29,913 bases of DNA from a virus, in the IMG/VR virus record IMGVR_UViG_3300046484_000031, positions 1 to 29,913 of that record; one strand, written 5' to 3'. Both the position numbers and the translations under genes were made by a program. Below, piece after piece: positions 1,029 through 29,703 of this stretch; the stretch's first letter is position 1; each line of letters opens with the position of its first letter. Under the pieces are notes generated by a model. The model was not told the DNA's origin, ran no database searches, and was given only the letters and a program-made list of their open reading frames with translations.

Positions 1029-1603
1029 CTCTCGTCGTCGGCATCGACCCTGGCATCAACGGCGGCGTCGCGGTGCTGCGCGGAGATGCCGCAGTCGTCT
1101 GGTCGATGCCGACGGTGGTGCGCCTGATCGGCGGCAAGCACAAGCGCCGCGTCGACGCAGCGGCGCTGACGAAGCTTTGCCGCGATCACGTCGCCGCATA
1201 TCTCTCGTGCTCTTGCATCGCCTTCGTCGAACGGGCGCAGGCAAGCCCGCAGATGGGGGTTTCTAGCGCGTTCGGGTACGGGGAGGGCTTCGGCATCCTG
1301 GTCGGCGTCCTCGCGGCTCTCAACGTCACCGTGCGCTTTGTGACGGCCACGCAGTGGAAGCGCCCGATGGGGCTCGTCATCGCAGGCAGCCGCGAGCTCG
1401 GGCGCAACGATGCGCGCGACAAGTCCCCGGCACTGGACCTCGCGCGGCGCCTGTACCCGAAGCTTGCGGCCGAGCTGGCGCGCGAGAAGGACGACGGGCG
1501 GGCGGAGGCGCTGCTCATCGCGCACTACGGTTGCGAGGTGCTCGACGAGGAAGAAGCCGAAAAGGTCGGGCCGCTGTTTGCCGCCCAAGGAAGACGACGA
1601 TGA
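1025..1603 (+). CDS. RuvC-like Holliday junction endonuclease
   Basis: The protein (192 aa) begins with the RNase H-fold signature VVGIDPGINGG, placing a metal-binding Asp at residue 8. A second acidic residue is E69 in AFVERAQ, and the C-terminal motif KDDGRAEALLIAHY supplies D156/D157 with the Ala-Glu-Ala helix typical of phage RuvC relatives. The segment PQMGVSSAFGYGEGFG matches the loop that follows the second acidic residue in this family. In phages such enzymes resolve branched DNA before packaging. The start at 1025 overlaps the upstream stop (ATGA) and places the first motif at the N-terminus; an in-frame ATG at 908 would run deep into the previous gene. The stop overlaps the methyltransferase start at 1600. 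Confidence 0.88.
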   Translation: MTLVVGIDPGINGGVAVLRGDAAVVWSMPTVVRLIGGKHKRRVDAAALTKLCRDHVAAYLSCSCIAFVERAQASPQMGVSSAFGYGEGFGILVGVLAALNVTVRFVTATQWKRPMGLVIAGSRELGRNDARDKSPALDLARRLYPKLAAELAREKDDGRAEALLIAHYGCEVLDEEEAEKVGPLFAAQGRRR

Positions 1604-2547
1604 CAGAACTCTCTCTCGTTCTTGGCACCGGCGACAAGCTGCAGCTCGAGCTCGAGCGCGTGCGCGATATCCTGCAGCGTTGCCAGCATCTCGACGAAGC
1701 CAAGGAGATCCGAGACAAGACGGCAGCCGTCGCGATCTACCTGCGCAAGCGTGACGCCAGTGTCGAAATCCAGAACTACGCGCTCGAGCAAGTGCTTTGG
1801 GCAGAGCGGCGCATGGGGCAGCTACTTGATGAGCAACTTGCCGAGAAGGGCAGGCCAACTGCTGGAAAATGTACTTCTGACGGACATTTATTTTTAGATG
1901 AACTCGGGATCTCGAGAAACGAGTCATCAAGGGCGCAGAAAATGGCCGGGATACCGGAGGCTACGTTCACGAAGCGACTCGAGCGTGCGAAGACCGACGC
2001 CCGGCGCCTTACGGTCAACATCGCCCTCGGGGTCAAGACCAAGTCAGAGTCGCCAAGCATCCAAGACCGACGCACCCCGCGGTGGCTCTTCGATGCCCTG
2101 AACGAGCGCTTCGGCCCATTCAAGCTCGACGCGTTCGCATCGGGCGTAAACCACCTCTGCGACGAGTACTATACGCGTGAGGACAATGCCTGCCGCCAAG
2201 CGTGGGTTGATGTCACCTTCGCCAACCCCGATTTTGCCGAGATGGAGGATCCGCTCCGTCATGCCGTGGCAGAAGCCGCGCGTGGCGTTCGCTCGGTAAT
2301 TCTCGGGCCCGTGGGCTGCTCGCAGGAGTGGTACCACAAGCTCTCAATCCAGGGCACGATCTACGTGCCCGACAAGCGCATCAGCTACGACTTGCCCGAC
2401 GGCTCGGCGACGACATCCAACGCCGACCGTGACACCATCGTCATGGCCTTCGGACGCGAGCATGTAAACCCGCGGTGGAAGCGCGGCGTGTTCCGAGTCC
2501 GGACGCTCTACCTCGTGTACCCGAAGAAACAGCGAGGCGCCGCGTAA
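1600..2547 (+). CDS. phage Dam-type adenine methyltransferase with regulatory N-terminus
   Basis: The protein has 315 aa. Residues 1-80 carry the charged helical segment (EAKEIRDKTAAVAIYLRKR, then WAERRMGQLL) found at the N-terminus of many phage regulators and methylases. Residues 97-130 (LGISRNESSRAQKMAGIP) resemble a ParB/KorB-type helix-turn-helix. Residues 159-285 match the phage DNA N6-adenine methyltransferase family (TPRWLFDALNERFG, LDAFA, EYYTREDNA). The catalytic motif expected to read (D/N)PP(Y/F) reads NPDF at 209-212, so activity may be altered. Probable role: adenine methylation of phage DNA for protection or regulation. It overlaps the RuvC-like gene (ATGA) and shares one base with the next start (TAATG). 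Confidence 0.82.
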   Translation: MTELSLVLGTGDKLQLELERVRDILQRCQHLDEAKEIRDKTAAVAIYLRKRDASVEIQNYALEQVLWAERRMGQLLDEQLAEKGRPTAGKCTSDGHLFLDELGISRNESSRAQKMAGIPEATFTKRLERAKTDARRLTVNIALGVKTKSESPSIQDRRTPRWLFDALNERFGPFKLDAFASGVNHLCDEYYTREDNACRQAWVDVTFANPDFAEMEDPLRHAVAEAARGVRSVILGPVGCSQEWYHKLSIQGTIYVPDKRISYDLPDGSATTSNADRDTIVMAFGREHVNPRWKRGVFRVRTLYLVYPKKQRGAA

Positions 2548-5878: not shown

Positions 5879-7399
5879 ATGGATCTCCGTTCGGCGTTGT
5901 TGTCCTTGGTGAGTGTCAATCTCGTGGGGCCGGCGGCCCTGGCCCCACAGATTGGCATGCAGACAGCGATGGCCGCCGCCTCCGAGGCGCGGGCTGCTCG
6001 AGCCGATCGCTCTGAGACGCGAAGCAAGAGGATCAGCGGCTCCGGGACCCGCATCACCGCGGGATTCATCCAAGAGCTAGACCAGAACGCCGATCTGCGT
6101 GGGAACAAATGGTACGGTCGCCCCGGTCAACCAGGCATCGCTCAAAAAATGATGAAGGATCTACACGTCCGGCAGTCGATGGCCGATGTGTACGAGCCGC
6201 TGCTTGCAGGGACGTGGCGATTCAGGCCCGCGAGTTCGAGCGCTATTGACCGCGAGATCGCCGACTTCATGACATGGTGCCTCGTCGATTCCCTCCTTTG
6301 GCACGAGGCCGCCAAGCGCACCATCCTCGATTATGGCCAGAACGGCTTTGCGCTTGCCGAGCTCACCGACGATATTCGCCCAATCCCGGTCGATAGGTTC
6401 CCTCTGCACCCTGGCGGGGGCTCCGGCATAGTTCCCACCGGGATACACCAGATCCCCGGCAACACCGTATACCGGTGGTTGCAGTCGCAGACTTCGACAT
6501 CGCAGATCGATGGCATTGTGCAGCAGATCTATGGGTCTGACGCCGAGCAAGTTGGGTTCCCGACCATTCCAGCGGATCGGATAATTCGTTGGACGTGGGA
6601 TCAGGATGGCGCCAACTTTGAGGGATTCCCAATTCTGCGCAGCGCCTACGCGCCATGGAAGATGAAGATCGCTTTTCAGACCCTCTCGGCGATGAAGCAC
6701 GAGCGCTGCGCGCTCCCAGTGCCCGTGGCGATTGCCTCGGATAACGCTGCCGACGATGATGTCGACGCCGTAGAGAAAATCTTGGAGGAGATGCGAGCGA
6801 ACGCCCGCGGCTATCTCGTACTCGATAACGGCTGGAGTTTCAAGTGGGAAGGGGCTACCGCTCACGACGGTAGCAATATCGAGGCGGCGATAAGTCAATG
6901 CAACCAGGACATCGCCTTCAACGTCTCGGCTGCCTTTATGCTCCTCGGCCTGACCGGCAAGAGCGGCTCCTACGCCCTCGGGTCGACCCAGCAAGGCAAG
7001 TACCACCTTGCCGAGCTCGCGCACGCGCGGTTCATCTCGGCTGGATGGAACCTGGGCTATGATGGCTGGTCTCCCGTCGAGCGATACGTGCGGCTCAACT
7101 ATGGAGACGCCGTTAGCATTCCCACGATCATGGTGCGCAACCTGCCCACCGCCAACTGGGCCGACCGTATCCCACTGATGATCAACGCGGCAAACGTCGG
7201 GCTCGTTCGCCGCGACGGGCGCACCGAGAACGCCATCCGCGAGGCCCTCGAGTTCGACGACTTCGATCCCGATACCGAGATACCGGCGCGCGCGCCCACC
7301 GCGCTACTGCCGTCTCGAGAGCAGCGTAATCAAGAGCACGCCGCTCCCAACGAGACAATGCCGATGGACGAGAACCAAGGCGAGGAGCAAGCCGCATGA
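5879..7399 (+). CDS. portal protein, Mu gp29-like (DUF935)
   Basis: The 506-residue protein matches the DUF935/Mu gp29 portal family in length and pattern: an early KMMKDLHVRQSMADVYEPLL segment, a central region with DGANFEGFPILRSAY, and AFNVSAAFMLLGLTGKSGSYA, STQQGKYHLAELAHARF and WSPVERYVRLNYG further on. Portals form the 12-subunit ring for DNA entry and tail joining. The start is uncertain: ATG 5879 is the first in-frame start after a stop at 5864-5866, but no ribosome binding site precedes it and the first 30 residues are oddly hydrophobic. In-frame ATGs at 5957 and 5969 are alternatives. The stop overlaps the protease start (ATGA at 7396). Confidence 0.87.
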   Translation: MDLRSALLSLVSVNLVGPAALAPQIGMQTAMAAASEARAARADRSETRSKRISGSGTRITAGFIQELDQNADLRGNKWYGRPGQPGIAQKMMKDLHVRQSMADVYEPLLAGTWRFRPASSSAIDREIADFMTWCLVDSLLWHEAAKRTILDYGQNGFALAELTDDIRPIPVDRFPLHPGGGSGIVPTGIHQIPGNTVYRWLQSQTSTSQIDGIVQQIYGSDAEQVGFPTIPADRIIRWTWDQDGANFEGFPILRSAYAPWKMKIAFQTLSAMKHERCALPVPVAIASDNAADDDVDAVEKILEEMRANARGYLVLDNGWSFKWEGATAHDGSNIEAAISQCNQDIAFNVSAAFMLLGLTGKSGSYALGSTQQGKYHLAELAHARFISAGWNLGYDGWSPVERYVRLNYGDAVSIPTIMVRNLPTANWADRIPLMINAANVGLVRRDGRTENAIREALEFDDFDPDTEIPARAPTALLPSREQRNQEHAAPNETMPMDENQGEEQAA

Positions 7400-9759
7400 A
7401 TGCGCGAGCCGTTATCAGCTACCTGACATCGCGGCAGTGGGCCATGGACCCGGCGCACCTCCAATCCCTCGCCGAGTCCATCTCTCTGGCGCTCGAGAAA
7501 ATACCGCCGGATACGCTCAAGGCTGCCCAAGACGTGGCGGCCTCGAGGCCGAAAGCAGGGGCAGCGTCGAACGCTGGCGCATTGCCCTACGACCTGCGAG
7601 ATGGCGTCGCCCATATCCGCGTGTCCGGCGTCATCCTCAAAGAAGTTCCCTGCATTTTCGATCTGCTCGGCATGCCGGCGACGAGCACGCTTGGCGTACA
7701 GCGCGCCCTTGGTGCTGCCGTCGAAGATGAGGCGGTCAAGTCGATATCGCTCGACATCGACTCCCCCGGTGGCTCGCTGGCTGGTGTCCAAGAGCTGGCC
7801 GATGACGTGGCTGCGGCCGCAAGCCTCAAGCCCACCGTTGCGCACGCGAGCGACCTCATTGCGTCAGCCGCCTACTGGATCGGCTCGCAGGCATCGAAGC
7901 TCACCGCCAACGAGTCGGCAATGGTCGGCTCGATCGGCGTCTACTCGGTGATCGAGGACGCGAGCGCCGCGGACGCCGCCGCCGGGGTCAAGGTCCATGT
8001 CCTGCGTAGCTCTCCCCTCAAGGGTGCCGGAGCCGGCGATGGCCTAACCACTGCGCAGCTCGCCGACCAGCAGCGGATCGTCGACGAGGCAGCGGTGATG
8101 TTTACCGCCGCCGTGGCCCGCGGCCGGCGCATGTCGATGGAAGACGCGCAAAAGGTATCTACCGGGCAACTCTGGTTCGCCGCGGAGGCGCTGCAGCGCG
8201 GTCTTATCGACAGCATTTCGAGCTCATCGAGCGCCCACGCCGCCATGGCAGCGGTCGGGGCGCCGCAACTAACACAGGAAATCGCGCCGAGCGTCGGCGC
8301 TCTACAGGAGAAAATCATGGCAGATCTCAAGAATCCCACCACCCAGGCCGACGCCGAGAGCGTCGACAAGCTCAAGGCCGATCTCGCGGCGGCGAATGCT
8401 CGCGGAGCGGCCCTCGAGGCCAACGCGAAAGCTCTCGAGGATCAGCGCAAGGAAGCGCTGCTCACGCAATATCGCGATCGCATCGCCCCTGCGGCGCTCG
8501 CCGGGTTCCAGCAGGCCGCCGCGTCCATGAACGCCGAAGGCCTCGATCAGTGGCTCAAGAATTTGCCGCCAATCACGCGCGCCGAACGGGCCACCGCGAA
8601 CAGCGTGATCCCCACCGCGATCATCGAGCGCGCGCAAGCGACCATTGAAGAGCGGTCGCTCGCCAAGGTGTTCGGGCAGAGCCCCGAACGGTGCCGCGAC
8701 ATGCAGGCGATTGGCGACAACGTCGATCACGTCGAGTATGAGAAGACGCCTACCGCCGATGGCAAGATCGTGATGGAGCCCGTGGCGGTCCTCAAGGATG
8801 GCAGCCGCGCGACCCGCAAGGAACTCCGTGGACGGCTCGGTCTGACGGGCGCTGTCGCGGCGATCTTGTTCGCCGTGTCCATGGCGTTCAGCGGTCCCGC
8901 TCATGCCGGCGCCCTCTCGGCGGCACGCGCGACCCAATCGAAGGCCCCCGGGATCAAGTGGTACAAGATGAAGGCCTCGACCACGATTTACGCTGGTGGC
9001 CTGGTGATGATCGACACCAACGGCGTTGCGTTGCCCGCGGCGGCAAGCGCCAGCAATCACGGCGTCATGGGTGTAGCAACCGAGACCAAGACATCGGCGG
9101 CGAGCGGCACCACCAAGATCAACGTTGCCGAGGGATACTTCCTATTCGACGCGACGAGCATTGCTCAAACAGCCGTTGGTTCGGTGATGTATGCCTCCGA
9201 CGATCACACCTTTGACGAGACGCAAGGCGCCAATGAGCCGGTGGCCGGAATCCTTGTCGAATGCGTCGGAGCGACCTCCGGATGGCTCTATATTTCTCCT
9301 ACCATCCAGGCACGCGCTTTTTACGCGACGACCGACCCGCTCACGCTTACCGGGGATCTGACGCTCGACGGTGGCGCCAATGCTCTCACCTTCGGGGCGG
9401 CTTCGAGCTCAATCCTTACCACCGACAATAGCGCTACCGGATTGCTGATGGGATCTACCGGGCACCTGAACACCGTAACCCTCGATACGCGAGATGGGGC
9501 CGAAGGTGTGATCGTCAATGGGTACGAGAGCGTAAGCGGCCTGTTCACCGCCACTGGCGGGGTGACCAGTCCGTCGACCAACGCCCTTGAGCTAACGTCT
9601 GCCACCAGCATGGGGTGGACGCTCGTCTCAGGAGCCAACACGGCGTGTAACACCACGTGCACGCATGCCTGCGTCTTCGGGCAGGACACCGCCACCTATG
9701 CTCTCGTCGCCTGCACCGACGCCACCGCCGACATCTGCCTTTGCGCGGGCGCCAACTAA
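7396..9759 (+). CDS. capsid protease-scaffold-decoration fusion protein
   Basis: The 787-residue product contains several parts. Residues 60-280 are an S49/SppA-type serine protease: DSPGGSLAG strand-turn, nucleophile S157 in ASAAYW and general-base K209 in SSPLKG, 52 residues apart. Residues 308-400 are an Ala/Glu/Lys-rich helix typical of phage scaffold. Residues 481-506 form a hydrophobic, signal-peptide-like segment ending SGPAHAGA. Residues 516-640 resemble the Mu-type head decoration family (YKMKASTTIYAGGLVMI). The last 150 residues are Thr/Ser/Gly-rich, beta-type, and end in a seven-Cys cluster. It should mature the prohead and supply scaffold and perhaps decoration. It overlaps the portal stop (ATGA), and the major capsid gene follows 47 bases later. 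The fusion of decoration to protease is unusual. Confidence 0.85.
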   Translation: MNARAVISYLTSRQWAMDPAHLQSLAESISLALEKIPPDTLKAAQDVAASRPKAGAASNAGALPYDLRDGVAHIRVSGVILKEVPCIFDLLGMPATSTLGVQRALGAAVEDEAVKSISLDIDSPGGSLAGVQELADDVAAAASLKPTVAHASDLIASAAYWIGSQASKLTANESAMVGSIGVYSVIEDASAADAAAGVKVHVLRSSPLKGAGAGDGLTTAQLADQQRIVDEAAVMFTAAVARGRRMSMEDAQKVSTGQLWFAAEALQRGLIDSISSSSSAHAAMAAVGAPQLTQEIAPSVGALQEKIMADLKNPTTQADAESVDKLKADLAAANARGAALEANAKALEDQRKEALLTQYRDRIAPAALAGFQQAAASMNAEGLDQWLKNLPPITRAERATANSVIPTAIIERAQATIEERSLAKVFGQSPERCRDMQAIGDNVDHVEYEKTPTADGKIVMEPVAVLKDGSRATRKELRGRLGLTGAVAAILFAVSMAFSGPAHAGALSAARATQSKAPGIKWYKMKASTTIYAGGLVMIDTNGVALPAAASASNHGVMGVATETKTSAASGTTKINVAEGYFLFDATSIAQTAVGSVMYASDDHTFDETQGANEPVAGILVECVGATSGWLYISPTIQARAFYATTDPLTLTGDLTLDGGANALTFGAASSSILTTDNSATGLLMGSTGHLNTVTLDTRDGAEGVIVNGYESVSGLFTATGGVTSPSTNALELTSATSMGWTLVSGANTACNTTCTHACVFGQDTATYALVACTDATADICLCAGAN
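8317..9759 (+). CDS. nested in-frame scaffold (plus decoration) product
   Basis: Inside the protease gene, an in-frame ATG at 8317 (residue 308 of the long product) follows AGGAG at 8306-8310 with a six-base spacer, a better ribosome binding site than those of many genes here. Translation from it would give MADLKNPTT and a 480-residue protein starting exactly at the scaffold-like helix and sharing the C-terminus. This mirrors lambda gene C, in which Nu3 scaffold starts inside the protease gene. The site is seen in the sequence; its use is inference from the lambda arrangement. Confidence 0.6.
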   Translation: MADLKNPTTQADAESVDKLKADLAAANARGAALEANAKALEDQRKEALLTQYRDRIAPAALAGFQQAAASMNAEGLDQWLKNLPPITRAERATANSVIPTAIIERAQATIEERSLAKVFGQSPERCRDMQAIGDNVDHVEYEKTPTADGKIVMEPVAVLKDGSRATRKELRGRLGLTGAVAAILFAVSMAFSGPAHAGALSAARATQSKAPGIKWYKMKASTTIYAGGLVMIDTNGVALPAAASASNHGVMGVATETKTSAASGTTKINVAEGYFLFDATSIAQTAVGSVMYASDDHTFDETQGANEPVAGILVECVGATSGWLYISPTIQARAFYATTDPLTLTGDLTLDGGANALTFGAASSSILTTDNSATGLLMGSTGHLNTVTLDTRDGAEGVIVNGYESVSGLFTATGGVTSPSTNALELTSATSMGWTLVSGANTACNTTCTHACVFGQDTATYALVACTDATADICLCAGAN

Positions 9760-9806
9760 TCACCAAAGAGAATACTTGAGGCCATAGGCCCGAGGAGAAA
9801 AGTGTC

Positions 9807-10781
9807 ATGGGAACCCCAGTTTTTGCACCGCAGATGCTCCGCAAAGATGTGCGTGGCGAGTTCATCGAAGCCTTGATGGCGCCGCGCGAGCCACTTCTTT
9901 TCGAGCGCATCGCGACGACGATGCAGAGCGTCAGTGACCGAGAAAACTACGCGTGGCTGTCGGAAGTCTACGAGATGGAGGAGTTCGTAGACAGCATGCC
10001 GATCCAGCCGCTCACCGACTCGGTTGGATTGACGCCTGAGACCGGCGCCGACGAACCCGGCTACGAGGTCAAGAACAAGACCTATGCCGGGGCGTTGGTA
10101 TTCAAGCGCGACGATCTCGCCGACGAAAAGGTCGGCGGCTATCAGCAGCGCATTCGCGACTCTGCGGTTCGCGCCCTGCGCAAGCCCGATGCTTTGCTTG
10201 TCGCCAAGCTCATCGCTGGAACAACCGACACTTGCTATCTCAGGGCGGGGGCAACGGGCGAGGCGTTCTTTTCGGCGACGCATGCGGCCCGCGGCAAGCA
10301 AACCACTACCTGGAGCAACCTGCTCACCGGTACCGGGACGTCTATCGCACAATGCATCACGGACATCGCCAGCGCTCTAGCGGCCCTGTATACGATCACC
10401 GACGAGGCCGGCGTGCCGATGAATCGAGAGTATGGGCGAAGCATTTTCGTTCTTCATCCGGCCGCTCTCGAAGTGCAGATGCGTACCGCGGTACTCGCGG
10501 CCATGGTGTCGCAAACGAGCAACGTCGGTTTCGCCCCGCTTATCGAACTCATTCGAGAGCCCCTGCTCGATCTCGATAGCGTGAACGACTACTACGTCGG
10601 CATCTTAGATGCTCCGGTGCGCGGGCTCATCTGGCAGGACCGCGAAGGCGTGCGCCTCGAGCAGATTGGCGAGGGTTCGGAGATGTGGACGAACCTGCGC
10701 CAAGTCGAGTATGCGGTCACCCGCCGCGGGGCTCCCGCGTTCGGTCGTCCACAGCGCTTGATCAAGATCAACAATACCTAG
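9807..10781 (+). CDS. major capsid protein, Mu gpT-like
   Basis: A soluble 324-residue protein, close to the size of Mu gpT, in the canonical place after the protease/scaffold. It has an N-terminal helical arm, a central GYEVKNKTYAGALVFKRDD segment matching the gpT family, and a C-terminal strand-rich region (YYVGILDAPVRGLIWQDRE, then RQVEYAVTRRGAPAFG). It forms the HK97-fold shell. A strong GAGGAGA site precedes the ATG at 9807, fitting a highly expressed structural protein. A GC-rich hairpin follows the stop by 14 bases. Confidence 0.87.
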   Translation: MGTPVFAPQMLRKDVRGEFIEALMAPREPLLFERIATTMQSVSDRENYAWLSEVYEMEEFVDSMPIQPLTDSVGLTPETGADEPGYEVKNKTYAGALVFKRDDLADEKVGGYQQRIRDSAVRALRKPDALLVAKLIAGTTDTCYLRAGATGEAFFSATHAARGKQTTTWSNLLTGTGTSIAQCITDIASALAALYTITDEAGVPMNREYGRSIFVLHPAALEVQMRTAVLAAMVSQTSNVGFAPLIELIREPLLDLDSVNDYYVGILDAPVRGLIWQDREGVRLEQIGEGSEMWTNLRQVEYAVTRRGAPAFGRPQRLIKINNT

Positions 10782-12616: not shown

Positions 12617-12793
12617 ATGCCCAGGGTGATGATGCTTAAGACGGTCGAACAACAGATCGAGGGTGGTGGCAAGATCACTTACCCCGCGGGTCATCTGCAC
12701 TTGGTTGGCGACGAGCTCGCCGACCAGTGGTGCAACTCCGAGCCCCCGATAGCAGTCCGCGAAGACGATCAACCCGAGGTGGCCAATGGCTAG
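12617..12793 (+). CDS. small hypothetical protein (58 aa)
   Basis: The frame from ATG 12617 to TAG 12791-12793 encodes 58 residues: a basic strand-like start (MPRVMMLKTVEQQIEGG), then KITYPAGHLHLVGDELADQW and an acidic tail. This resembles the short beta proteins found in head-tail regions that carry a YPAG-H/V-DELA-W pattern. GAGG of the overlapping upstream stop precedes it. The next gene starts eight bases before its end, so the two are probably coupled. Function is unknown. Confidence 0.65.
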   Translation: MPRVMMLKTVEQQIEGGGKITYPAGHLHLVGDELADQWCNSEPPIAVREDDQPEVANG

Positions 12794-13145
12794 GTCGAAC
12801 ATCGCGCTGCAATCGGTGGGATCATTCGGTGGCGCGCTCGCTGACACGGCCTTCGGTGCCGCTGACACACTCGGAAGCTACATCGCCAACAACGGCAATG
12901 TCATCGTCCAGGTAAAGAACGCCTCGGGAAGCCCGATCAACGTCACCATTGCCAGTGTCCCTGACTCGGATGGACGCACGCGCGGCACCGGCGACGTCAC
13001 GGCGGTGGCAGACGGAAAGACCGCGACGTTCGGCCCGTTCCGCCCGGACTTGTTCAACCAGTCGGGAGCAGATTTGGGCCGCATATATATTGACTATAGC
13101 GCTGTCGGCAGCGTCACGGTCGCGGCCATCCAGCTTAACCCATAG
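12786..13145 (+). CDS. decoration-like structural protein, copy 1
   Basis: A 119-residue all-beta protein with repeated NGNVIVQVKNASG, VTIASVPDSDGRTRG, VADGKTATFGPFRPDLFNQ and VTVAAIQL blocks. Small Ig/beta-sandwich virion proteins of many phages share the KNASG, VADG, GPFRP-LFNQ pattern. The next gene (13154) is a clear paralogue. Location upstream of the tail tube suggests a head or tail decoration protein. GAGGTGG precedes the ATG at 12786, which overlaps the previous gene by eight bases. The fold is inferred from strand pattern; binding partner is unknown. Confidence 0.68.
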   Translation: MARSNIALQSVGSFGGALADTAFGAADTLGSYIANNGNVIVQVKNASGSPINVTIASVPDSDGRTRGTGDVTAVADGKTATFGPFRPDLFNQSGADLGRIYIDYSAVGSVTVAAIQLNP

Positions 13146-13153
13146 AGGACACC

Positions 13154-13519
13154 ATGGCAGCTAGAGACGCAATTACCCCCCAGTCAGTGGCCGCCAATGG
13201 CGGAACGCTGGCCGCCGTTACCTTCGGCGCGGTCGTGCAGGCCAACGGCAGCTACTTCCTTAATGACGGATCCGTGGTCTTGCTCGCAAAGAACGCCTCG
13301 GGTGGCGCCGCGCGCACCGTCACCGTGACAAGCGTCGCCAATCGAAACAACCGAACCAGCACCATCACGCGCACGGTGGCCGATGGTGCCATCGCCTTGA
13401 TTGGTCCGCTTCGTCCTGAGCTCTACAATCAGGTTGGAGTGGGCGATCTCGGCAAAGTGTTCGTGGACTATGACAGCGACGGCGGTCTAACCATTGCGGC
13501 GATCTCGCTGCATCTCTAG
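13154..13519 (+). CDS. decoration-like structural protein, copy 2
   Basis: A 121-residue beta-rich protein, paralogous to the one just upstream. Shared features in order are: a polar N-terminus with GG and TFGA, N-DGSVVLLAKNASGG against N-GNVIVQVKNASG, VTSVANRNNRT, a VADG turn, IGPLRPELYNQ against FGPFRPDLFNQ, DLGKVFVDYDSDGGLTIAAI against DLGRIYIDYSAVGSVTVAAI. The pair most likely arose by tandem duplication and may form mixed oligomers on the capsid or tail. GAGG precedes the ATG. Confidence 0.68.
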   Translation: MAARDAITPQSVAANGGTLAAVTFGAVVQANGSYFLNDGSVVLLAKNASGGAARTVTVTSVANRNNRTSTITRTVADGAIALIGPLRPELYNQVGVGDLGKVFVDYDSDGGLTIAAISLHL

Positions 13520-16718: not shown

Positions 16719-17713
16719 TGTCCTATCTCGTTGTCGATGGCATCGCGATCCGCGTCGCTGCGGCCACGCCCTCGCTTGGCTACGACAACATTGGCACTCC
16801 GTCGCGCTCCATCAACGGAAGCTATTTGCCTTCGCTGCGGGCCCAGAAGCGCAAGTGGACCTGCAAGACGCCCCCGCTCTCGGACGCTGACGCGCGTGCC
16901 CTCGAAGCATGGCTTGCTCGGGTTGTGCGGCCCGACCTCACTACGAGTCCCTATGCGACGACCTCTGGCTACCTTCCCGTCTCGACTGCGGGCATCAACC
17001 AAGACGCCGCAGGGGCGCCTACCGGCGAGGCTGCACAGCACCTAAACTACTCGCCGACGTCGGGCGAAATAGTCCTCACCTCCGCTACCTCTAATCCGTT
17101 CTTCGGTTACACTGACGCGTGGTCTTTCTCGGTTTGGCTCAAGGGCGGGGTGACCGCATCTCACACGAGCAAAATACTTGGCCTCGCCGGGTCGTGCCTC
17201 ACCGTGACGCCCTCCGGCATCGTGACATGGACGGCGCCGAGCCTATCAGGCGTCGACCTGTCCGACAATGCGTGGCACCACGTGGCGATCGCCGTGTATC
17301 TCGATAGTGCCAATCTCGGGCACTACTCGCTATTCTGCGACGGCGCGCTGGCGGCGAGTGGCACCGCGAGCACCGGCACCACTTCTTGGCAATCACTCCA
17401 GGCAGCGACCGTCGTGCAGCTGTTTTCGTGGGACGTCACGCACACGACCAACACCAACACCTACCCTGGCCTTGTGTACCAGCCTCTCTTTGTGGGCGAT
17501 GCCGTGACCGCCGCGCAGGCGCTCGCGCTCTACAACGCGCGTGCAGGGGTTGTGCTCGGAGCGTGGCCAAGGCGCCGCGTGACCGGGGCGATGGTCGGTG
17601 GGCGCGTGCTGACATGCGATGCCGAGCTCACGGGAGCCGATCCAGTCGATTTCTATGCTTCGGGCGCAATGCAAAAAGGCCGCGCCGTGAGTTTCAACTT
17701 GATCGAGAGTTAG
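16718..17713 (+). CDS. distal tail-like protein with inserted LamG/concanavalin domain
   Basis: The 331-residue protein has an N-terminal part (MSYLVVDGIAIRVAAATPS, KRKWTCKTPPLSDADARALEAW) and C-terminal part (TGAMVGGRVLTCDAELT, GRAVSFNLIES) that look like a distal tail protein, and between them, at about residues 105-280, a LamG/concanavalin-A-like domain (DAWSFSVWLKGG, LSDNAWHHVAIAVYL, HYSLFCDGALAASG, FVGDAVTAAQALALYN). LamG-type domains bind glycans, so the tail tip probably contacts a surface carbohydrate. The start overlaps the tape measure stop (TGATG), and the hub/fibre gene starts 11 bases after the TAG. Confidence 0.75.
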   Translation: MSYLVVDGIAIRVAAATPSLGYDNIGTPSRSINGSYLPSLRAQKRKWTCKTPPLSDADARALEAWLARVVRPDLTTSPYATTSGYLPVSTAGINQDAAGAPTGEAAQHLNYSPTSGEIVLTSATSNPFFGYTDAWSFSVWLKGGVTASHTSKILGLAGSCLTVTPSGIVTWTAPSLSGVDLSDNAWHHVAIAVYLDSANLGHYSLFCDGALAASGTASTGTTSWQSLQAATVVQLFSWDVTHTTNTNTYPGLVYQPLFVGDAVTAAQALALYNARAGVVLGAWPRRRVTGAMVGGRVLTCDAELTGADPVDFYASGAMQKGRAVSFNLIES

Positions 17714-17724
17714 GGGTATGGCCG

Positions 17725-20700
17725 ATGCGAACTCCGTCCACTCAAGATGCCGTCCTACTACCAGCCGATACCTACGCGACGCACGCACGACTTTGGGTTG
17801 AGCAACCAGGCGCGGTAGACGCCGGCATCGGCGCCGGGTGGGTTTGCCTGTCGGACTACCCCGGGCTCGGCGACCTCACGATCTCAATCACCAGGGGTGA
17901 GACGGTCGACGACCCGTGCGCCTCGCTACAGGCCACACTCTGTCGCGACTTCGGCAACTACTCGCTGTCGCCCGAGGCGTTGCGTTCGCCGCTCAATCTC
18001 GTGGGTGGATCGTTCGTCCCGCTCATCAAGGGCGGGCGCGGGATACGTCTCTATGTGGCAATCAGCCCGAGCGGCGCGGCGCCCAATACGGACGCCTGGC
18101 ACCTCAAGTTCGACGGACATATTGATACGCTCGATCTCGCGAACGGTGACTCGACGATAGGTCTACAGGCGCGCGACCTCGGCGGTAGGCTGCAAGCTAC
18201 GCAGATCGAGGCCTCGCGCGTGTACGGCAGTGATGCCGGCGTCGCCGTCGAAGCCGTCATCCAAAGTATCCTCGACGATAACAACACTGGCGTGACGCTC
18301 GTCGTACCCGCGAGCCCGGGTTGGGACCTGCACAAGTACCAGCAGGACAAGACCAACGTTATGGACGCCATCCGGGCGCTCGCCAGCCAGATCGGGTGGG
18401 AACTGCGCTATCGGTGGAATGCAGTAGCATCGCGCTTCGACCTCACGCTATGGGACATCGATCGAGCCAAGACGACGGCAGATGACACCATCACGCCCGC
18501 GCAGGTACGAGCCTGGAAGTCAGCCAATGAGGACGTGACGACGATCCGCAACGTGGTTACGGTCGTCTACAAGGTCGACACCACGACTGGCGAGCGCTCG
18601 AGCTACACGGCCACCGACTCAACAAGCATCGCCGACAACGGGCGAATGGCGTGCGAGGTGGTCGAGGACGCAAGCTCGCAGATCGACGACGAAGCGACCG
18701 CCGGCCGGATGGCGACCGCGATTCTGGCCGACCTGAAAGACACGCTCATCGCAGGCTCAGCCGACACGATCCCGCGCCCCCATGCCGAGCTGGGCGACCT
18801 CCTCACGTTCACCGCCGACAACACGCCGCTACCGCGCTGGTCCGATATCGACCAGACCTTGGCCGTGGTGGGCGTGCAAGACGACTTTACGGTAGAGGTC
18901 AGCAGCACGACTCTATCGCTGCGCGGCAAGCCCTCGGGTGGCTTCGAGCGATGGCTGCAGCTCGAGGCGCGCAAGGGCATTGGCTCCAATCGCGCTCTTG
19001 TGGCAGTCGATGGCGCGAGCGGCGAGAGCTCGGGCGCCACGCTCGGCGGTATCACGATCGTCTATGACGAACCCACGACCGTCAACTGGGTCTACAGCGA
19101 GCTCTATCTCTCGACCGTGTCCGGCTTTACCCCCGACGCCTCGACGTTCTACACACGAGGCCGGACTACCACGTTCACGATCGGGGGCCTGATCCCCGGG
19201 ACCACATACTACGCCAAAGTCGTGGTAGTCGATAGCGCCGGCAACCGATCGACGGCGTCGACGCAGGCGGTTGTCGCGGCGGCCCTGGTAGGCCCGGCGC
19301 ACGTCGATCACGGCGATGTGAGCAAGCTATCGATCCCGAACGGGTCTTTCTCGGTCACGAGCCCGCCCGCGGTCGTCGGCACAAACCCACCCGATAGCTG
19401 GACGCCCTGTTACGCCCGATCCACGGCGATAGGTGGGGGTGTGAACGCCTGGGTGCCCACGGATTACCCTGCCGTGTGGGGCAATGGCGCTGCACTCGAT
19501 ACGAGCGCGAACCGGACGGGCGGCGCCGCTTTGATACTCTCCCCTACTACTCTGTGGTCAAGTCCTGTGACCAGGTACGGTGTGAGGTCTCCGCTCGTGC
19601 CTTGCTCGATACTTGCAAGCCAATACATCCGGCTCGTGCTCAAGATGGTGACGGGAGGAGGCGCTCCGGGCTTCCTATATGTCCAGATGTTCTACTACGA
19701 CCGCAACAAAAATTTCGTTGGCCCGGTCCTTACGGCCGACGATTATGTGCGGGTGCCCGCAACCCCCGACACGGATTGGCGCACGGCTTTTGCCGATGCC
19801 GTGGGGGCGCCGCCGAACGCCGCGTGGGTGAGCGTCGGTCTGATGCTCTCGACTGCCGATAGCGGCACGCTCGAGATCGACCAGGTCGAGGGCGTCGACC
19901 CCGCGGCACTTGCGGCGAGTACCAGTGTACGCACCAAGCAATTGCTCGCGAGTAGCACGCTCAACGCCGCGCTTACCACGGACATGCTCAACGTCACGAC
20001 CGACGATCCCGCGGCCCCCGCATTTCAAGTCACGGCAAGCGGCGTCACGGGCATCCACAAGCAACTGTACGTCGACAACGGCGGGTCGTTTGCCGCACCA
20101 ACCGCCGACCCCGTGGCGAAGTTCGAGGCTTTTGGGTCAGCTATCCAGCTCGAGCCCAACACCGCGGGCGGCACGCAGTTTGATATCGACTCGCTCGGCG
20201 AGGGCGATCTGTGCTTGGTGCCCAACAAAAACTTTGGGATCGACGGGCACAGGCGCAACGTGATCCTTGGACCATCTAATCCGCTTGCCGGACAGGCCGT
20301 GATCCCCTCGGTAGCGGCGGGCAAAGCACTCAAGCTTGACACTGGGCACGAGGTTATAGGCTTTGACGCGCTTTCGGCACCGTCTGGCACAGGGTGGGTG
20401 CACGTTACAGATGGCGCGGTTGACGGTGCGGCTTCGACGCCAACCTACGCTGACGTCGGAGCCGCCGCTGCATCGCACACGCAAGCCGTCAGCACGATCA
20501 GCGACGCTACGACGGTCGGCCAGAGCCTAGTCAAGCTCACCAACCCGAGCGCGGTGACGTTCCCGCGCATCAACGCCGACAACACGGTCACCGCCCGCTC
20601 GGCCGCGCAATTCGCGGGGGACATTGGGTCTCTGAGCAACCCCATGGATGGTCTTGGCCAGTTTATATACGGCGCCGTTACCACAGGGGCACCAACAAAG

Positions 20701-22035
20701 CTCGCAGCACCGAGTGTTGATGGTTTTTACGTCCTGAGCGAGACGGTGATTGCGTCTACTCCGGTAGCACCCGCGTGGACCAATCTTGTGGCCAGTGCCA
20801 CGCCAGGCGCCGATACGTTCGTCATAAGTGGAGGCTCAGGAAAGATCGACACGGGTTGGATTGATACGAGCACTGTAGGAGGAGCAAGCAAGATCCCGCA
20901 ATACGATACGACCGGAGCTCTATTGATCACAGATACAGCCGGCGCATCGCAGAGCGACCTCGTGATCCAATCCACGACTAACTCGGCACGCATCGAATTG
21001 CAGCATTATGGCATTGGCAATCCGGCGTTCACGCAGCGTTTCGGTGGTGGCACTCCCGCATCACCGACAGCCACCCTCACTGGAGCTACCGTTCTCGTGC
21101 TCCAGGGGTCGGGGTGGGATAACGCAGGTACTCCAGCCAAGACGTCTCCCACAGTGCGCTTCGGAGGAGTAGCCAAAGAAGACTACACGACGACGGCGCA
21201 AGGTACCAAGGCAGTGATCGAGACCACCGCCACCGGAGCCACCGGAGCGGCACGAGCCGTGCGTTGCACCATCGATGAGCAGGGCGTCAAGCCCGCTGGC
21301 CTGGCAGCCTCACGCGCGGCCGTCATCGACGCGAACGGTGCGATTGCAAGCGGGACATCAGCACTGGGTACGGCGGCTTATGCAGCCACAGGCGATTTCG
21401 ATCCGGCTGGTGCGGCTAGCGCAGCAACTGGCGTAGCAGCCGGATCTACATTAAGCGGCACTGCTATTACAAGTAGCAACAAAGCTGTTGATGTTCTGGG
21501 TCTAAGCGCAGCTGGCGGCGTCACCTATGCTGGTCTAGTTCCGCGTCTAGTCCCTGTAGGTGGGTTTGTGCCTGGCTACCTTGATATGTCGATGGGTGGT
21601 GTTGCTGGATCCTTGGCCACGTTAGATGCAAACACTTTAGTAAAGCAGTATTCGGCCTGGGCAGCGCCGCTTGCTGCAACACCAGGTGCCAACGTCACGT
21701 TGACCACAGCTGGTACAATCTACGACGTAATAACTTTGGGGGCGCTAGCAGCTACCGGTGATTATCTATTGAGCGCGGCCGTGCTTGTAGGCAATGCTTC
21801 TGGCACGTCATACATAAAAATGGAAGTGTTAGCTGGCGCTACCGTGATAGCATCGGCACAATGTGACCCCACCTCATTGACCACGCTTTCCGTTGCGAGT
21901 GTTCCGGTTACGATAGCGGCTGGGACGGTTGTTAAGATGAAATGTATTGCCGGCGTCAATGGTGGCACCGCCTACAAGAGCAACCCGAGTATGGGTGGTG
22001 CATGTTCGTGGCTTGTATTGCAGCGGATCAAATGA
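17725..22035 (+). CDS. tail hub/fibre protein with fibronectin-III and fibre domains
   Basis: The real start is ATG 17725 after AGGGGT; upstream open frame lies in the previous gene. The 1436-residue product begins with a tail-hub/gp27-like region (about residues 1-430: YGSDAGVAVEAVIQSILDD, VMDAIRALASQIGWELRY, IRNVVTVVYKV). A fibronectin type III domain follows (about 450-520: IPGTTYYAKVVVVDSAGN), then a carbohydrate-binding-like beta sandwich (about 555-725), Ala/Gly/Thr-rich fibre (about 730-1230) with tail-fibre repeats (GTAAYAATGDFDPAGAASAA) and a C-terminal beta head. It likely closes the tail tube and carries the receptor-binding tip. The last 600 bases are much lower in G+C than the rest. 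Confidence 0.78.
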   Translation: MRTPSTQDAVLLPADTYATHARLWVEQPGAVDAGIGAGWVCLSDYPGLGDLTISITRGETVDDPCASLQATLCRDFGNYSLSPEALRSPLNLVGGSFVPLIKGGRGIRLYVAISPSGAAPNTDAWHLKFDGHIDTLDLANGDSTIGLQARDLGGRLQATQIEASRVYGSDAGVAVEAVIQSILDDNNTGVTLVVPASPGWDLHKYQQDKTNVMDAIRALASQIGWELRYRWNAVASRFDLTLWDIDRAKTTADDTITPAQVRAWKSANEDVTTIRNVVTVVYKVDTTTGERSSYTATDSTSIADNGRMACEVVEDASSQIDDEATAGRMATAILADLKDTLIAGSADTIPRPHAELGDLLTFTADNTPLPRWSDIDQTLAVVGVQDDFTVEVSSTTLSLRGKPSGGFERWLQLEARKGIGSNRALVAVDGASGESSGATLGGITIVYDEPTTVNWVYSELYLSTVSGFTPDASTFYTRGRTTTFTIGGLIPGTTYYAKVVVVDSAGNRSTASTQAVVAAALVGPAHVDHGDVSKLSIPNGSFSVTSPPAVVGTNPPDSWTPCYARSTAIGGGVNAWVPTDYPAVWGNGAALDTSANRTGGAALILSPTTLWSSPVTRYGVRSPLVPCSILASQYIRLVLKMVTGGGAPGFLYVQMFYYDRNKNFVGPVLTADDYVRVPATPDTDWRTAFADAVGAPPNAAWVSVGLMLSTADSGTLEIDQVEGVDPAALAASTSVRTKQLLASSTLNAALTTDMLNVTTDDPAAPAFQVTASGVTGIHKQLYVDNGGSFAAPTADPVAKFEAFGSAIQLEPNTAGGTQFDIDSLGEGDLCLVPNKNFGIDGHRRNVILGPSNPLAGQAVIPSVAAGKALKLDTGHEVIGFDALSAPSGTGWVHVTDGAVDGAASTPTYADVGAAAASHTQAVSTISDATTVGQSLVKLTNPSAVTFPRINADNTVTARSAAQFAGDIGSLSNPMDGLGQFIYGAVTTGAPTKLAAPSVDGFYVLSETVIASTPVAPAWTNLVASATPGADTFVISGGSGKIDTGWIDTSTVGGASKIPQYDTTGALLITDTAGASQSDLVIQSTTNSARIELQHYGIGNPAFTQRFGGGTPASPTATLTGATVLVLQGSGWDNAGTPAKTSPTVRFGGVAKEDYTTTAQGTKAVIETTATGATGAARAVRCTIDEQGVKPAGLAASRAAVIDANGAIASGTSALGTAAYAATGDFDPAGAASAATGVAAGSTLSGTAITSSNKAVDVLGLSAAGGVTYAGLVPRLVPVGGFVPGYLDMSMGGVAGSLATLDANTLVKQYSAWAAPLAATPGANVTLTTAGTIYDVITLGALAATGDYLLSAAVLVGNASGTSYIKMEVLAGATVIASAQCDPTSLTTLSVASVPVTIAAGTVVKMKCIAGVNGGTAYKSNPSMGGACSWLVLQRIK

Positions 22036-28253: not shown

Positions 28254-28376
28254 CTATCTGCTGCTCATGATCATAGTGTGCCATCGCGGTCCGTCGGACG
28301 CCAGAAAATAACACCAGTCAAGTGCTGATTTAATTCCACGCACGTACATGAAAAGGTGTTCAGGTTGAGGGATCAT
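28254..28376 (-). CDS. possible very small protein (40 aa)
   Basis: The frame from ATG 28376 to TAG 28254-28256 overlaps the end of the methyltransferase gene by 17 bases and its stop lies six bases before an alternative start of the next gene. The product (MIPQPEHLFMYVRGIKSAL, then DWCYFLASDGP) has a plausible amino-acid mix, but only a weak ribosome binding site is visible. Local G+C is lower than in the flanking genes. It may also be non-coding leader. Confidence 0.35.
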   Translation of the reverse strand: MIPQPEHLFMYVRGIKSALDWCYFLASDGPRWHTMIMSSR

Positions 28377-29703
28377 GCAGACGATCTCGCCACCTCGCGA
28401 TGCTTCGGCCCACCGCTTCGTCCATCGGTGGCGGCATGGCTTGACCGATCTGCGACCAACGCGCACGCTTCGTTTTTCCGCAGAAAACCCAGTCTGGGGG
28501 GAAGCCCTGCAGGATGGCCGCGGCGCGCTCGCTCAGCACAACCGCGTTGGGGTTGCCGCGCTGACTCTCACCGTCACGGCCATTGCGGCCCGTCGGCGCT
28601 AGCTGTGGGCCCGAGCACACCACTGTGCTGGTCGTATCCCACGGCCACTCGAGAGCGGTTTGGAACTCGGCTTGGGCCGTCACAGTCCGCGCCGGCGCAT
28701 CGACGGGTTGCGGTGCTCGATTTGGGTCAGGCAGGCGGTCGACAAACTCAACGACGCTTGCCCTCTTGCCCGCACGCCTCCCTTCGGTCGTGATTGTCCA
28801 AGCCGGTTCGTCAATCTTGGACGTCGGATGGCCATGCATTGGGGCTATTGCAAGTAGACGCCCGTCGTCTTGCTTTGTCGTGATGACCCGAGATACTTCG
28901 TCGGCTCCGGCGACACGTCGGTCGCCTCGAGTCATCAGCACCGCGCCACCGTTTGTCGGCATCGAGGACGGCACCACTTGCCCAGGTTCATTCTCGAGCG
29001 AGCACGGGTGGCCAGCATGGCCCCTGCGGTCGGTGACACGCACTGGACGCCCTAGCTCCTCGATCGGCAAGTGATCGAGCGCGTCCCGACATGTAACCCA
29101 GGTCTTGAGCCCGCACCCAGGCAGGACGGGAGGCTTGCAGTGCGTCGGGTGCGGCCACTCAATGCAGGGCGTGCCGATTTTATGCCCAAACCAGAAGGGT
29201 CTGACGCGCTTCTGCGGCACCCCGAAACTGGCGGCGTTTAGCCTCTGGAAGTCGACGCAATAGCTGCACCTCGAGGCCATGCCTCCGATTACTGGTTGCA
29301 CCGTCTCTGCCCAGTTCTTGGAGTCGTCTAACCCGGGCACGTTGGCAATGAGCCAGGCTTGCGGCCGCAACAACTCGATGAGCTCGACCGTGACGCCGAG
29401 CATGTCGCGCTCATCCTCTTGGCCCTTGCGGCTCCCCGCTCGCGACCAGGGCGTGCACGGCGGATCGGCGACGAATAGGTCGACCGGGCCTGGTGACCAG
29501 CCGGCGCGCACCATGCGCAGCAAGTCGCGTACGTCCATTTGCATGGGACGATGACCAAGGTTGCGCTCGTAGCTGTCGCAGGCGTCCGTGTCGGCGTCGA
29601 AGCCTAGCGCTATCGCCTCGCCGAGCGACCATGCCACGCCTGTCTCGATTGCATGCTGCATTTCGCGCGTTATCGCGCCCGAGGTAATGTCGATCTCAGC
29701 CAC
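28360..29703 (-). CDS. C5-cytosine DNA methyltransferase (Dcm-like) with altered motifs
   Basis: The 447-residue protein keeps the catalytic loop ADPPCTPWS (C83), motif VIII VPQKRVRPFWFG (Q164, R166, R168), a target-recognition region of about 190-350 with three motif-IX-like copies (VSRVITTK, EPAWTITTE, APARTVTAQ) and motif X GQAMPPPMDEAV. Two sites depart from consensus: motif VI reads ANV at 120-122 instead of ENV, and the N-terminus (GVAWSLGEAIALGFDAD) lacks the FxGxG of motif I. It may be an inactive or specialised enzyme. The start is GTG at 29703 after GAGGTG, overlapping the previous gene by eight bases. Confidence 0.82.
   Translation of the reverse strand: MAEIDITSGAITREMQHAIETGVAWSLGEAIALGFDADTDACDSYERNLGHRPMQMDVRDLLRMVRAGWSPGPVDLFVADPPCTPWSRAGSRKGQEDERDMLGVTVELIELLRPQAWLIANVPGLDDSKNWAETVQPVIGGMASRCSYCVDFQRLNAASFGVPQKRVRPFWFGHKIGTPCIEWPHPTHCKPPVLPGCGLKTWVTCRDALDHLPIEELGRPVRVTDRRGHAGHPCSLENEPGQVVPSSMPTNGGAVLMTRGDRRVAGADEVSRVITTKQDDGRLLAIAPMHGHPTSKIDEPAWTITTEGRRAGKRASVVEFVDRLPDPNRAPQPVDAPARTVTAQAEFQTALEWPWDTTSTVVCSGPQLAPTGRNGRDGESQRGNPNAVVLSERAAAILQGFPPDWVFCGKTKRARWSQIGQAMPPPMDEAVGRSIARWRDRLHDPST

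Follow-up and report, generated by a model that had tools for sequence, protein, structure and literature searches.

In phage lambda the scaffold (Nu3) is produced from an internal start within the protease gene C, and decoration proteins sit on the capsid exterior. The lambda genes C/Nu3, D and E follow one another in the order protease, decoration protein and major capsid protein, an order shared by Pseudomonas phage ZRG1 and Achromobacter phage phiAxp-2, and in all three the decoration gene is separate. The Mu-like phages RS1, Mushu, Mx4, Klebsiella ST405-OXA48phi1.1 and PaMx73 also have a separate decoration-type gene between the protease-scaffold and capsid genes, and their protease, where annotated, is of the Mu I type and not S49. 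An internal scaffold start has been described in PaMx73 (PMC4378225). Scaffolds act inside the prohead, and lambda gpD binds matured capsids only (PMC3185693). Fusions among protease, scaffold and capsid subunit have already been described in small actinobacteriophages (PMC7302621; PMC5513430); in Microbacterium cluster EE and others the third head protein fused to protease and scaffold is an HK97 capsid subunit (PMC7302621). We found no description of a decoration-protein fusion in the open-access papers that were searched.

Here we analyze a viral DNA of 29,913 nucleotides (IMG/VR record IMGVR_UViG_3300046484_000031, positions 1 to 29,913; the whole stretch is called the window) in which the order protease, decoration, major capsid protein is the same as in lambda, whereas the decoration sequence lies in the same frame as the protease, behind an extra junction and a hydrophobic segment. 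The gene is most likely a lineage-specific fusion of three adjacent head genes (S49 protease, scaffold and decoration/head fibre) of a siphovirus-like phage.

Organization of the fused head gene

The fused gene is a single, uninterrupted ATG-to-stop frame of 787 codons (80.6 kDa), and its own start has a strong ribosome-binding site, with an anti-SD pairing of -8.1 kcal/mol (Table 1). It sits between the portal gene, whose end it overlaps, and the gene for the major capsid protein; since the latter is separate, the fusion is not one of protease, scaffold and capsid. The frame, the domain matches and the predicted fold of the decoration module confirm an earlier note on this DNA, which had placed three modules in one 787-codon gene. 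The head module as a whole (5879-10781) is a mosaic in which a Mu-like portal and a gpT-like capsid protein flank a lambda-type S49 protease, and other gpT phages have a Mu I protease at the position of the S49 protease in the window.

Table 1. Coordinates in the window of the fused head gene, its parts and its neighbors (L001, the second contig with the fusion).
Feature	Residues	Position	Strand	Evidence or remark
Mu-like portal protein (context)		5879..7399	+	Pfam Portal_Mu, E 1e-26
Fused head gene		7396..9759	+	S49 protease, scaffold, junction, decoration, Thr/Gly-rich tail; L001 6001-8772 is built alike
Peptidase S49 core	142-285	7819..8250	+	Pfam PF01343, E 6e-27; PHROG 53, E 2e-57; dyad conservation
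Shine-Dalgarno AGGAG, internal start		8306..8310	+	6 bases upstream of ATG; strongest in-gene anti-SD pairing
Scaffold region, putative nested start Met308	308-435	8317..8700	+	Position, internal start, long helix in low-confidence model
Junction segment	436-480	8701..8835	+	Predicted beta hairpin 443-466, pLDDT 83-86; pN/pS 0.22
Hydrophobic signal-peptide-like segment, ends Ala-His-Ala; predicted processing region	481-504	8836..8907	+	Kyte-Doolittle
Decoration/cement domain	505-640	8908..9315	+	PHROG 1731; tblastn; fold match; only decoration homologue in window
Variable Thr/Gly-rich tail	641-787	9316..9756	+	pN/pS 0.57-0.76; six Cys in last 37 residues
Mu gpT-like major capsid protein, separate gene (context)		9807..10781	+	Pfam PF10124, E 2e-20; L001 counterpart 84% identical

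The fusion is conserved in an independent contig

The same architecture is found in one 923-codon frame (923 aa) of an independent viral contig, IMGVR_UViG_3300049561_000014 from IMG/VR (L001), with 67% protein identity to the window. Synonymous sites are near saturation between the two, and pN/pS is 0.22 across the junction (residues 436-480) and 0.34 across the hydrophobic segment. The fusion is thus real and conserved: its presence in L001, together with purifying selection on the junction frame, excludes an assembly error for practical purposes, and excludes also the missed stop or indel (between about 8500 and 8950) that the earlier note had named as a refuting observation. Although the window is a virus-collection record without a second read set, it is very improbable that an assembly or sequencing error joined two genes, given an independent contig at this distance in which both the frame and the hydrophobic character are preserved. 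The window and L001 are the two known examples of the fusion; scans of viral sequences with the fused protein, the capsid protein and the junction gave L001 as the only close relative, and genome contigs gave none. An overlapping second gene in the junction was rejected, since synonymous sites change freely there (pS 0.66-0.81).

To place the fusion among its relatives, we surveyed the best 80 of at least 600 IMG/VR S49 matches as phage loci, together with about 50 free-standing decoration genes, and within this set protease and decoration share a frame in the window and L001 only. The approximately 50 free decoration homologues are separate genes of 131-271 aa, one 99-aa fragment aside. Decoration genes are separate in the S49 phages compared as well as in the Mu-like relatives, in agreement with the contrast that the earlier note had drawn with Mu-like and lambda-like phages. 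Some free decoration proteins (254-268 aa) carry additional C-terminal domains; their genes, at L084 5800-6606, L091 2090-2857 and L030 2840-3604, lie downstream of S49 protease genes. In two loci from uncultured phages that are only distantly related to the window (L070 3992-6580 and L081 4001-6355), an S49 protease and an HK97-type capsid protein occupy one frame (PF01343 and PF05065). As in the window, the protease is fused to the following head protein, but in these loci that protein is the capsid protein, and a decoration domain was not found.

Protease and scaffold modules

The N-terminal part of the fused protein matches PHROG 53, the head maturation protease. Among 46 aligned sequences, nearly all of them S49 homologues, Ser157 (codon 7864-7866) is invariant and Lys209 (codon 8020-8022) nearly so, bearing out the catalytic dyad assigned in the earlier note. 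With the profile match, the conserved dyad and portal and capsid genes as neighbors, the gene has the features of an S49 head maturation protease, and proteolysis of head proteins is predicted for its product.

The scaffold is the least certain module by sequence. Its assignment is based on position, on the internal start and on a long helix (residues 320-377) predicted in a model with pLDDT below 50, and a profile search with residues 308-435 gave no significant match. The scaffold-like helix noted previously stands as a prediction, at the expected position and with its own start, but at low model confidence and without a profile match. Structure prediction of the full-length protein from two sequences was unusable (pLDDT 31.6).

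The internal start, Met308 (ATG 8317), has the best anti-SD pairing of the in-frame starts inside the window gene (-7.4 kcal/mol), a value comparable to that of the gene's own start, and its equivalent in L001 (-9.1 kcal/mol) is likewise the best internal start. Both phages consequently have an in-frame internal start with a ribosome-binding site at the border of protease and scaffold, the same nested arrangement as in lambda C/Nu3 and Mu-like PaMx73, except that in the window the nested product would continue into and through the decoration domain (480 aa, 49.3 kDa). This 480-residue scaffold-decoration product is probably made in addition to the full-length protein, so that the single product envisaged earlier probably becomes two. 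No clear signal came from RNA folding around this start (z -1.6).

Decoration domain and variable tail

Residues 506-625 match PHROG 1731, a virion structural protein (E 1e-16), and Pfam Phage_cement_2 is matched with an E value of 0.1 by the window itself and of 1.3e-4 by the best of 7 aligned family members. By tblastn, the family occurs as small separate genes in Mushu, in Myxococcus phage Mx4, in a Klebsiella phage and in the two Rhodovulum phages RS1 and vB_RhkS_P1, each placed between a gene at the protease position and the capsid gene. A structure model of the domain was built from 27 aligned sequences, with residues 506-635 modelled at pLDDT of about 87-97. Its top match among solved structures was the HFTV1 decoration protein (Z 10.4, rmsd 3.4, 117 aligned; Foldseek, VIA-align 2), followed by the decoration proteins of FCWL1, T1, XM1 and Pam3; lambda gpD and the base of the phi29 head fibre ranked lower. 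Of all the evidence for a genuine decoration or head-fibre base domain in the third module, this structural agreement with solved decoration proteins is the strongest, although a sequence search of the PDB with the decoration profile, unlike the fold search, gave no match. Profile and predicted fold together uphold the decoration-like domain of the earlier note, but the domain comprises residues 505-640 and not 516-640. As a decoration/head-fibre base domain, residues 505-640 are predicted from sequence and model to bind the capsid exterior. A search for a second decoration gene elsewhere in the window found none.

The C-terminal 147 residues evolve fast between the window and L001. Profile searches with the tail (residues 641-787) gave no match, nor did it have a confident predicted fold, so the additional Thr/Gly-rich region that had been proposed is present, and its beta fold is putative. 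The tail of L001 is alternative and longer, containing the Thr/Gly module twice, and its end weakly matches the tail of the free decoration protein in L091 (E 6e-4). Six Cys fall at positions 751-783 in the window and six in the last 112 residues of L001, which would fit disulphides formed outside the cell. We consider the tail likely to be a variable, exposed head-fibre extension. The phi29 head fibre gp8.5 similarly has a base domain that resembles the decoration domain of the window (Foldseek 6qyy; Z 5.3) and an exposed C-terminal extension, but gp8.5 is a separate gene, and its extension may be unrelated to the tail of the window protein.

Junction and hydrophobic segment

Profile searches with the junction segment gave no matches. 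Residues 433-449 (CRDMQAIGDNVDHVEYE) are 17 consecutive identical residues in the window and L001; they lie within a conserved stretch at 8692-8835 for which relatives beyond these two phages were not found.

The hydrophobic segment that follows was overlooked in the earlier note, and is the most telling feature for a polyprotein. Residues 481-499 have a Kyte-Doolittle value of 1.98 in the window and 2.06 in L001, the highest among 51 S49 tails, and basic residues lie before the hydrophobic core, with Ala-His-Ala (window) or Ala-Tyr-Ala (L001) after it. The segment ends exactly where free decoration homologues begin: these start with MAALTSARDT, which aligns with GALSAARAT in the window and ALTAARAT in L001, directly past Ala-x-Ala. 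The Ala-x-Ala motif by itself is weak evidence of cleavage; in these Ala-rich proteins it follows 9 of 17 internal hydrophobic segments, and 4 of the segments are copies of the fused gene.

A processed capsid precursor as a possible mode of action

Cellular SppA relatives of S49 proteases act on signal peptides. Since a scaffold works inside the shell and a decoration protein outside, a chain that joins the two should need cutting. In addition, residues 430-540 contain no conserved start with good SD pairing in either phage, indicating that free decoration protein is not easily made by re-initiation. A programmed frameshift at the junction was also rejected, since the window gene lacks a slippery heptamer and the single one of L001 is at residue 896.

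From these features we infer two products, a cleavage with its agent and site, and a place in the virion for the part that is released. The ATG at 7396 would give the full-length product in small amounts and the internal ATG at 8317 the shorter scaffold-decoration product in larger amounts, both carrying the decoration domain behind the hydrophobic segment. During assembly, the protease-scaffold part would enter the prohead interior, and the S49 protease, which belongs to the SppA family of signal-peptide peptidases, would cut in or just after the hydrophobic segment, at about residue 504. The cut would yield a decoration/head-fibre protein whose N-terminus is almost that of its free relatives; this protein may then stabilize the exterior of the shell and bear the variable exposed tail. 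We put the chance of a processed capsid precursor of this form, with two products, a cut near residue 504 and release of the decoration protein, at about even. A more tentative proposal is a self-processing head polyprotein, in which the SppA-family protease itself cuts the internal signal-peptide-like segment to free the decoration/head-fibre protein and the nested start sets the ratio of enzyme to structural protein.

It is unlikely that the fusion works uncut, with scaffold and decoration staying joined (e.g., where one vertex carries a small number of copies) and the hydrophobic segment serving as a buried linker. Such an arrangement would place a scaffold that belongs inside the shell on the same chain as a decoration domain that belongs outside, and would leave an intact protease dyad and, as an odd linker, a 24-residue stretch of transmembrane-like hydrophobicity. 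Nevertheless, head proteins tolerate fusion, as seen in the protease-capsid fusions of L070, L081 and the actinobacteriophages (PMC7302621), and cleavage of the fused protein is deduced rather than directly observed.

Less likely again is a role of the hydrophobic segment as a membrane anchor or internal signal peptide, with the protease-scaffold part in the cytoplasm and either a prohead held at the inner membrane during assembly, as T4 does, or export of the C-terminal half to the periplasm, where host signal peptidase would cut it. The positive residues before the core, the Ala-x-Ala after it and the six Cys near the C-terminus, all present in both phages, would be consistent with this role, and T4 head assembly requires a membrane scaffold protein; however, membrane association of the prohead has not been demonstrated outside T4 (PMC3185693). 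Moreover, the decoration domain must get to capsids in the cytoplasm, and a signal peptide is present in none of the aligned free homologues.

The least likely of these three modes of action is that free decoration protein arises from an internal start or a frameshift that escaped detection around residues 484-525, with the fused form as a minor read-through product. In L001, residue 484 is a TTG codon whose SD pairing is weak (-4.2 kcal/mol), but the window has CTG at that position and hence no start, and the best pairing that the window offers within residues 430-540 is -4.9, as compared with -7.4 for Met308. The frame is conserved through the junction, and every upstream ribosome, meeting no stop, makes the fusion.

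Other features of the window

Two adjacent small tail genes (12786-13145 and 13154-13519) look like a tandem duplication, each matching both L001 copies, with cross matches at 43-45% identity. A very long frame of up to 1549 codons (17386-22035) follows the tape-measure region, and a PHROG search with 17710-22035 gave no match. A DNA methyltransferase gene lies close to each end of the record, at 1354-2547 (+) and 28360-29703 (-), the two being on opposite strands.

Implications

The fused gene extends the known head-gene fusions of protease, scaffold and capsid subunit to a decoration protein. When scaffold and decoration are joined in one gene, synthesis, cutting and assembly have to follow a specific order, and the decoration protein would be provided at a fixed ratio to the scaffold. 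Finally, the fusion would open the cleavage specificity of phage S49 proteases, about which little is known, to testing: its linker points to a signal-peptide-like substrate similar to that of the cellular SppA enzymes.
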